The notes under the pieces were generated by a model. It did no database searches. It had not been told where the DNA came from and worked only from the letters and a program-made list of their open reading frames with translations. From a virus, in the IMG/VR virus record IMGVR_UViG_3300030060_006913, positions 1 through 21,697 of that record: 21,697 bases of DNA; one strand, written 5' to 3'. This document shows, in pieces, positions 19,106 through 21,625 of this stretch. Each line of letters begins with the position of its first letter. Within the stretch, counting starts at the first letter, position 1. The translations under genes were made by a program, and so were the position numbers.

Positions 19106-19357
19106 TTAACACATTTCATCTTTATAAGAGGTTTCATTCTTTGTTTGTTTCGGAGATGAAGCTTTACTTCCATTTACATATAAACCAAACCATGCAGCTC
19201 CCGCTCCAACAACAACCGATACAAAACCAGCTTGAGCATTATTTGGTTCTGGCAAATTCATAAACCAATTACATGTTTGATAAAATACAATCATGTAAGC
19301 TAAAATTAATAATCGAGGAATAATTCTCCAAGAATCAAGTCTTTGAGGGGTGATCAT
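19106..19357 (-). CDS. Small two-TM membrane protein (possible holin/antiholin)
   Basis: 83 aa. 'RIIPRLLILAYMIVFYQTCN' (about residues 11-30) and 'AGFVSVVVGAGAAWFGLYVN' (about 43-62) are two clear membrane helices. They are joined by a short loop with 'NLPEPNNAQ', followed by a charged soluble tail. I recall similar proteins ('MITPQRLDSWR..PR') in lysis regions of marine phages. With the three-TM holin two genes on, it could be an accessory holin or regulator, or an unrelated membrane protein. It overlaps the preceding gene by 23 nt. The sequence shows membrane topology only; the lysis role is inferred. Confidence 0.75.
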   Translation of the reverse strand: MITPQRLDSWRIIPRLLILAYMIVFYQTCNWFMNLPEPNNAQAGFVSVVVGAGAAWFGLYVNGSKASSPKQTKNETSYKDEMC

Positions 19358-19622
19358 AACTACAATAACCTCTTCTTCGATGGGGATCTAATACTTCTCT
19401 AGAACTCAAATAACCTTCTAAATACATTGATCGCTCCACATGATCTAATGAATACTGAATACCAGTATGCATCTTAATCGCTTTTTGTACATAAAATACT
19501 TCACTTCGAGGAATATGTATTTTTCTTAATGCTCCCATGTCCTCTTTAGCTAAAGCTTCATAAAATGTTTTTAAAATACGATTACATAAATCTAGTTTTA
19601 TTATCTTATCTTTTACTGTCAA
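19335..19622 (-). CDS. First gene of the late operon, unknown protein (TTG start)
   Basis: 95 aa if started at the TTG at 19622. An internal ATG at 19538 (residue 29, with GAGG just upstream) would give 67 aa. I prefer the long form because residues 1-28 look coding ('LDLCNRILKTFYEALAKED'). The protein is helical and basic, with 'HIPRSEVFYVQKAIKMHTG' in the middle and a His/Arg/Tyr-rich end ('DPHRRRGYCSYDHPS'). No family recognised. It is the promoter-proximal gene, about 105 nt downstream of the putative start site from the promoter at 19737-19764, and both 24-bp repeats lie in its leader. Confidence 0.68.
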   Translation of the reverse strand: MTVKDKIIKLDLCNRILKTFYEALAKEDMGALRKIHIPRSEVFYVQKAIKMHTGIQYSLDHVERSMYLEGYLSSREVLDPHRRRGYCSYDHPSKT

Positions 19623-19640: not shown

Positions 19641-19664
19641 TTACATTTAATGTAACATTTAATG
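19641..19664. repeat. 24-bp direct repeat, copy 1 (palindromic core TTACATT-T-AATGTAA)
   Basis: Identical at all 24 positions to 19700-19723. It contains the 15-bp dyad TTACATTTAATGTAA and a further half-site ACATTTAATG in tandem at 12-bp spacing. It lies in the leader of the leftward operon. Confidence 0.85.
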
Positions 19665-19699
19665 TTTAGTATTTTATTTATTCTAAAATCTTTTTATAT

Positions 19700-19723
19700 T
19701 TACATTTAATGTAACATTTAATG
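19700..19723. repeat. 24-bp direct repeat, copy 2 (operator-like)
   Basis: Exact copy of 19641-19664, offset by 59 bp. It starts a few bases downstream of the predicted transcription start of the promoter at 19737-19764, a position where a bound repressor would block initiation or early elongation. Repressor identity is unknown. Confidence 0.85.
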
Positions 19724-19736
19724 GTATTAATAAGAA

Positions 19737-19764
19737 GGTATATTTACGAATCAGTATATGTCAA
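19737..19764 (-). promoter_or_regulatory. Sigma70-like promoter for the leftward late operon
   Basis: On the leftward strand, TTGACA (19759-19764), a 16-nt spacer and TATACC (19737-19742). Transcription would start near 19730 and enter the 24-bp repeats and then the first late gene. The same TTGACA-16-TATA(A/C)C form occurs before the coat gene. Confidence 0.55.
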
Positions 19765-19824: not shown

Positions 19825-19842
19825 TGTGATAACAATGCAACA
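19825..19842 (+). repeat. 18-bp dyad, copy 1 (TGTGATAACAATGCAACA)
   Basis: First of four copies matching TGTGAYA-N3-AT-R-CAACA (13 of 18 positions invariant). Arms are partly complementary (TGT..CAT / ATG..ACA in copy 4), as for a dimer-binding site. The next copy starts 20 bp on. Confidence 0.75.
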
Positions 19843-19844
19843 CT

Positions 19845-19862
19845 TGTGATATACATACAACA
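19845..19862 (+). repeat. 18-bp dyad, copy 2 (TGTGATATACATACAACA)
   Basis: Second copy, 2 bp after copy 1, so centres are 20 bp apart, about two helical turns, on the same DNA face. Followed by another small inverted repeat (CAGTT/AACTG, 19861-19874). Confidence 0.75.
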
Positions 19863-19922
19863 GTTAGCAAACTGGTTAACACCTAAAATACCTCATCTGT
19901 GTATTTATACATGTATATATAA

Positions 19923-19964: not shown

Positions 19965-19982
19965 TGTGACATTTATGCAACA
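19965..19982 (+). repeat. 18-bp dyad, copy 3 (TGTGACATTTATGCAACA)
   Basis: Third copy, immediately after the GC-rich island. Differs from copy 4 at only two central positions. Confidence 0.75.
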
Positions 19983-20255: not shown

Positions 20256-20273
20256 TGTGACATATATGCAACA
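20256..20273 (+). repeat. 18-bp dyad, copy 4 (TGTGACATATATGCAACA)
   Basis: Fourth copy, about 290 bp from copy 3 and about 80 bp before the candidate rightward promoter. It is the most symmetric copy: TGTGACAT and ATGCAACA match as inverted arms at 6 of 8 positions. Confidence 0.75.
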
Positions 20274-21376: not shown

Positions 21377-21401
21377 ATTTTACTTAATAAATTAATAATT
21401 A

Positions 21402-21432
21402 AATAGGTGTATTAATTACACCTATTTTTTTT
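21402..21432 (+). terminator. Rho-independent terminator after the 310-aa gene
   Basis: Perfect 10-bp stem AATAGGTGTA / TACACCTATT with a 5-nt loop (TTAAT), running directly into a T-tract at 21425-21432. It lies 25 nt after the stop. Confidence 0.88.
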
Positions 21433-21591: not shown

Positions 21592-21625
21592 AAAGGATAG
21601 CTTTTTTAAGTTATCCTTTTTTTTT
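21592..21625 (+). terminator. Rho-independent terminator after the 38-aa gene
   Basis: 12-bp stem (AAAGGATAGCTT / AAGTTATCCTTT, one G-T pair) with a TTTT loop and a run of T to 21625. A second terminator so close after the first supports a real gene between them. Confidence 0.85.

Follow-up and report, generated by a model that had tools for sequence, protein, structure and literature searches.

The DNA analysed here, a virus record of 21,697 bp with 34% GC (IMGVR_UViG_3300030060_006913; referred to as the window), carries two identical 24-bp repeats directly downstream of a promoter of host type, P1, that precedes the late genes, and relatives have repeated dyads whose distance to this promoter is fixed. 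We assign a probability of about 0.55 to the reading that the repeats are operators for a putative phage repressor of P1. The TerL of the window matches that of HMO-2011 at 77%, which identifies the window as part of the genome of a marine phage of the HMO-2011 type. The minus strand beyond the repeat array encodes terminase, portal, major head protein and further virion genes, in agreement with the earlier sequence-only reading, which had called the genes downstream of the repeats a late operon. The DNA at 19170-19267 shares 84% identity with a gene of Mosig, a phage of SAR11, which hints at a SAR11 host or at gene exchange.

Repeats and promoter in the window and its relatives

The 24-mer TTACATTTAATGTAACATTTAATG occurs in two identical copies with a start-to-start distance of 59 bp, as had been described before (Table 1). 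When up to three mismatches are allowed, exactly these two matches are found in the window and none in 100 dinucleotide shuffles, and there is no third copy. On the minus strand, both copies read CATTAAATGTTACATTAAATGTAA. The 15-bp dyad recognised earlier is present in each of them, alongside approximate copies, and what had been taken for an extra half-site is in fact a second dyad, CATT-A-AATG, so that each copy is composed of two small adjacent dyads 12 bp apart. The sequence-only reading also placed the copies directly downstream of TTGACA-16-TATACC, and this promoter is indeed present on the minus strand. It has 10 of the 12 consensus bases and was missing from the automatic promoter list because its last -10 base is not T. 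Transcription from P1 would start near 19730.

Table 1. Coordinates of P1, the putative operators and neighbouring features in the window
Feature	Position	Strand	Remarks
P1 -35 hexamer TTGACA	19759..19764	-	TTGACA here in 86/91 relatives
P1 -10 hexamer TATACC	19737..19742	-	TATAAT, TAAAAC or TATAAC in most relatives
Operator cluster O1 (putative), two dyads CATTAAATG	19700..19723	-	about +8 to +31 from the predicted start
O1-O2 spacer	19665..19699	-	drifted in relative L004, clusters kept
Operator cluster O2 (putative), identical to O1	19641..19664	-	59 bp further downstream; about +67 to +90 from the predicted start
P2 -35 hexamer TTGACA	19617..19622	-	overlaps TTG start of gene 1
P2 -10 TAAAAC	19595..19600	-	inside gene 1
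Gene 1 of late operon, 95 aa	19335..19622	-	core small protein of the group; TTG start; absent from L004
Conserved non-coding block GTTAACAC-N8/9-CCTNATCTGTGTA	19874..19902	+	upstream of P1; spotted via HMO-2011
First gene of divergent early side, 310 aa	20444..21376	+	no relative detected

A scan of viral contigs with the exact 24-mer returned one relative, L004, that has both copies. They lie 58 bp apart, one of them with a single change, and TTGACA-16-TATACC is kept. The comparison proposed with the sequence-only reading thus shows, in L004, repeats that are retained while the spacer between them drifts, and the repeats are not private to the window.

A larger set of relatives was obtained with the conserved block, which fetched more than 100 further contigs and yielded 91 non-redundant regions. 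The -10 hexamer of P1 is TATAAT, TAAAAC or TATAAC in 88 of these 91, and the full 12/12 sigma70 consensus is found at P1 in 45 of 91 relatives, compared to 1 of 910 shuffles. Judged by its sequence, P1 is a strong promoter of host sigma70 type that is near-consensus across the relatives. Downstream of P1, the 91 relatives have 2.16 dyads of the form CAYT..ARTG per 190 bp, compared to 0.09 upstream of it and 0.12 in shuffled sequence, which makes the downstream density about 17-fold higher than the shuffled rate. With P1 picked by promoter score alone, the first dyad (O1 centre) lies 24 bp past the P1 -10 hexamer with a standard deviation of 7.0 bp (76 relatives), whereas its distance to the conserved block varies with a standard deviation of 25.6 bp, indicating that the array belongs with the promoter. 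Within a cluster the dyad centres are 12-16 bp apart, the larger gaps between sites peak at about 33, 47 and 61 bp, and the internal spacers of the dyads vary between sites, mostly from 1 to 3 bp.

In the records of 20 relatives, 19 of them whole-genome-sized, paired sites are nearly confined to the P1 locus, with a few isolated pairs elsewhere, and a genome-wide search of these records for operator pairs found no second control site; a fixed pair pattern applied over the 20 genomes was too strict to inform. All 46 separate loci fetched by the first early protein contain both the block and P1, and the site counts at these loci are biased upwards because the promoter choice made use of the sites. 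One 80-kb record (L086, IMGVR_UViG_3300046167_000032) contains a second P1 region about 55 kb from the first, along with two terminase genes; its assembly probably ran on beyond one genome length.

Site classes and candidate binding proteins

The sites fall into several motif classes, being alike within a genome and different between genomes. O1 resembles the O2 of the same genome more than the O2 of other genomes (14.02 vs 12.79, sd 0.11; 0 of 5000 permutations), as would be expected if one protein per phage reads the sites. CRP-1, CRP-2, CRP-9 and CRP-13 grow on one host strain, yet their motifs are not the same. The dyads of CRP-1 are of the ACACT type, those of CRP-13 read ATACT-N3-AGTAT, a related motif is found in CRP-9, and CRP-2 carries the palindrome AACATTAATGTT. 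These unlike motifs speak for a phage factor, and the protein that binds the dyads is likely to be phage-encoded. The host sigma70 type of the promoter would suit a host regulator acting at the sites, but such a regulator is highly improbable given these four same-host phages and, conversely, the single motif class shared by HMO-2011 and CRP-1, which have different hosts. Both CRP-9 and CRP-13 keep the virion genes and are without the HMO-2011-type primase, helicase and integrase, a pattern that weakly suggests, from one or two events, a binder encoded in the early or replication module.

Pfam and PHROG screens with one representative each of 108 families showed no common repressor among the best 25 families of each screen, and a CI/Cro-like gene was not found. 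Two neighbouring genes were considered as the source of the binder and rejected. Gene 1 is absent from L004 despite the same operators and is also too conserved, and the first early protein is unrelated in the pairs L058/L130, window/L004 and L048/L154 despite near-identical leaders. By these comparisons, neither is an obligatory partner of the operators. The same two observations count against the operator reading as a whole, as do the 1-3 bp variation in dyad spacers, which is loose for one protein family, and the 10/12 match of P1 to the consensus in the window.

The first early gene occupies the same place in most relatives and is fast-diverging, with many copies not recognisably related. 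The larger family of its protein has a predicted all-helical fold with no clear structural match, and a search for relatives of the window's own early protein found none. Two terminator-like sites, each a hairpin with a T-run, lie past this gene in the window (21401-21427 and 21592-21619). A further candidate is a small protein (CRP345 / L164:2260-2595 and relatives) with a predicted helix-turn-helix followed by a long C-terminal helix, whose best structural matches are transcription regulators, none of them significant. It is found only in some of the genomes with TAAAAC at P1, with one further match where P1 is not resolved; limited in this way, it would be at best a partial answer to the question of a general binder.

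The upstream block and alternative explanations

The block upstream of P1 is strongly conserved in more than 100 contigs, and DNA similarity between otherwise close phages ends about 50-70 bp past its start; the block is possibly a genome end, an origin or a recombination point. It is flanked by four copies of an 18-bp repeat, TGTGAYANNNATRCAACA (19825-19842, 19845-19862, 19965-19982 and 20256-20273). Similar copies are present in L004, and 25 of 91 relatives carry the repeat with at most two changes, compared to none in shuffles.

The dyads could be sites for the terminase small subunit in a packaging signal of the cosB or pac kind, with the block as the cut site and the proximity of the dyads to P1 incidental. 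The order of block, repeats and late operon would then parallel that in lambda, where cosN and cosB are followed by the terminase genes, and the loss of similarity beyond the block is what might occur at a genome end. This explanation is unlikely, however, considering that the repeats hold their distance to P1 and not to the block, and that CRP-13 has a recognisable HMO-2011-type TerS (family 13, present in 19/19 complete genomes) but a different motif. Alternatively, the repeats could be iterons of a replication origin for which the P1 transcript serves as primer, as the AT-rich intergenic region (25.6% GC) with its several repeat types and strongly conserved block, and the direct repeats 12-14 bp apart, might suggest. 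Dyad symmetry and strict spacing to P1 are not in line with iterons, and no initiator protein was identified, so that we regard an origin as quite improbable.

A tyrosine recombinase of the phage might use the repeats as arm-type sites of an attP. Among complete genomes, all 17 that have replication genes of the HMO-2011 type also carry the integrase family, as do 11/11 long loci, and CRP-9 and CRP-13, which have a different motif, lack it. Across the complete genomes, however, primase and helicase are present or absent together with the integrase. In addition, the integrase gene of HMO-2011 is located about 7 kb from the sites, and the spacing of the sites is fixed to the promoter, all of which makes attachment sites very unlikely. 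There is very little to recommend an element that acts as RNA, with the leader folding through pairing between repeat 1 and repeat 2. The predicted leader fold does pair the two copies, with z-scores of -1.4 in the window and -2.3 in L004, but the fold is weak, one copy on its own shows no stronger folding than shuffled sequence, and two copies of a DNA palindrome are bound to pair with one another anyway.

Proposed control at P1 and comparison with known systems

If the repeats are operators, we propose that a phage DNA-binding protein, probably from the early or replication half of the genome, binds the paired small dyads, which would begin about 10 bp past the P1 transcription start and recur about 60 bp further on. 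Activators rarely act from sites downstream of a transcription start, and we infer repression from this location. The bound protein would most likely block initiation or early elongation at P1, and the long-leader transcript, comprising gene 1 and the genes behind it, would be held back until the protein is lost or titrated. The second cluster would contribute cooperative binding, allow a short loop or act as a second block.

Downstream of the array lies a second promoter-like element, P2, which in the window is TTGACA-16-TAAAAC and has the general form TTGACA-16-TAAAACTA. The TTGACA of P2 is located at the start codon of gene 1 or just before it in 78 loci, and GTAAAACTA, which spans consecutive codons for Val, Lys and Leu, is unchanged in 77 of these 78, even though all three codons could vary silently. 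In complete genomes, TTGACA-N15-17-TAAAACTA hardly occurs outside P1 and P2; P2 is absent from L004. These observations are good evidence that P2 is an element at the DNA level, most simply a promoter, although sequence by itself is not proof of activity. An active P2 would feed the late genes, with the exception of gene 1, without passing P1. Since P2 lies beyond the operators, not all late genes would be switched off by repression of P1, a further point against the operator reading. Several relatives have additional 12/12 consensus promoters on the late strand. Thus, the core of the sequence-only reading, in which an operator-like array is linked to a promoter of host type before the late genes, stands and extends to conservation of the array, whereas the evidence does not support a single point of control for all late genes.

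The accessible genome papers on the group make no mention of promoters or repressors, and a combined literature search found none; subscription papers, e.g. the original HMO-2011 report, were outside the scope of this search. Within the accessible literature, P2, the element, its spread and the P1-locked pairing appear undescribed. This layout, in which the site sequences change, is found across a very abundant group of ocean phages and looks like an undescribed repressor switch, and the conserved promoter with its paired putative operators offers a concrete, testable control point of the infection programme. Some members of the group carry integrases and CRP-3 integrates (PMC6918029), so the control point perhaps serves the choice between lysis and lysogeny, and superinfection immunity. 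Only tentatively would we extend this to HMO-2011-type phages in general, which might share a lineage-wide paired-dyad repressor-operator system downstream of one late promoter, with a specificity that diversifies like that of an immunity system and a binder from a class of proteins that has so far not been recognised among phage repressors.

As a kind, operators close to phage promoters are already known. The OL and OR operators of lambda are small tandem dyads at a strong sigma70 promoter that are alike within the phage, and the arrangement described here resembles them in these respects; the lambda operators, however, overlap the promoter, whereas the sites here would begin past the transcription start, and a search for a CI/Cro-like gene found none. 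The R sites of lambda cosB are repeats as well, with a conserved non-coding site on one side and the late operon on the other, a likeness to the window that does not include the spacing, which is fixed here to the promoter and not to the conserved site. According to PMC9283540, stoperators of the mycobacteriophage L5 type are sites for the immunity repressor in a transcribed region that are able to stop elongation, and the putative repressor sites downstream of P1 would likewise lie in a transcribed region. L5-type stoperators are asymmetric and dispersed in large numbers over the genome; the sites described here are dyads, paired beside P1 at a single locus, with a few isolated pairs elsewhere.
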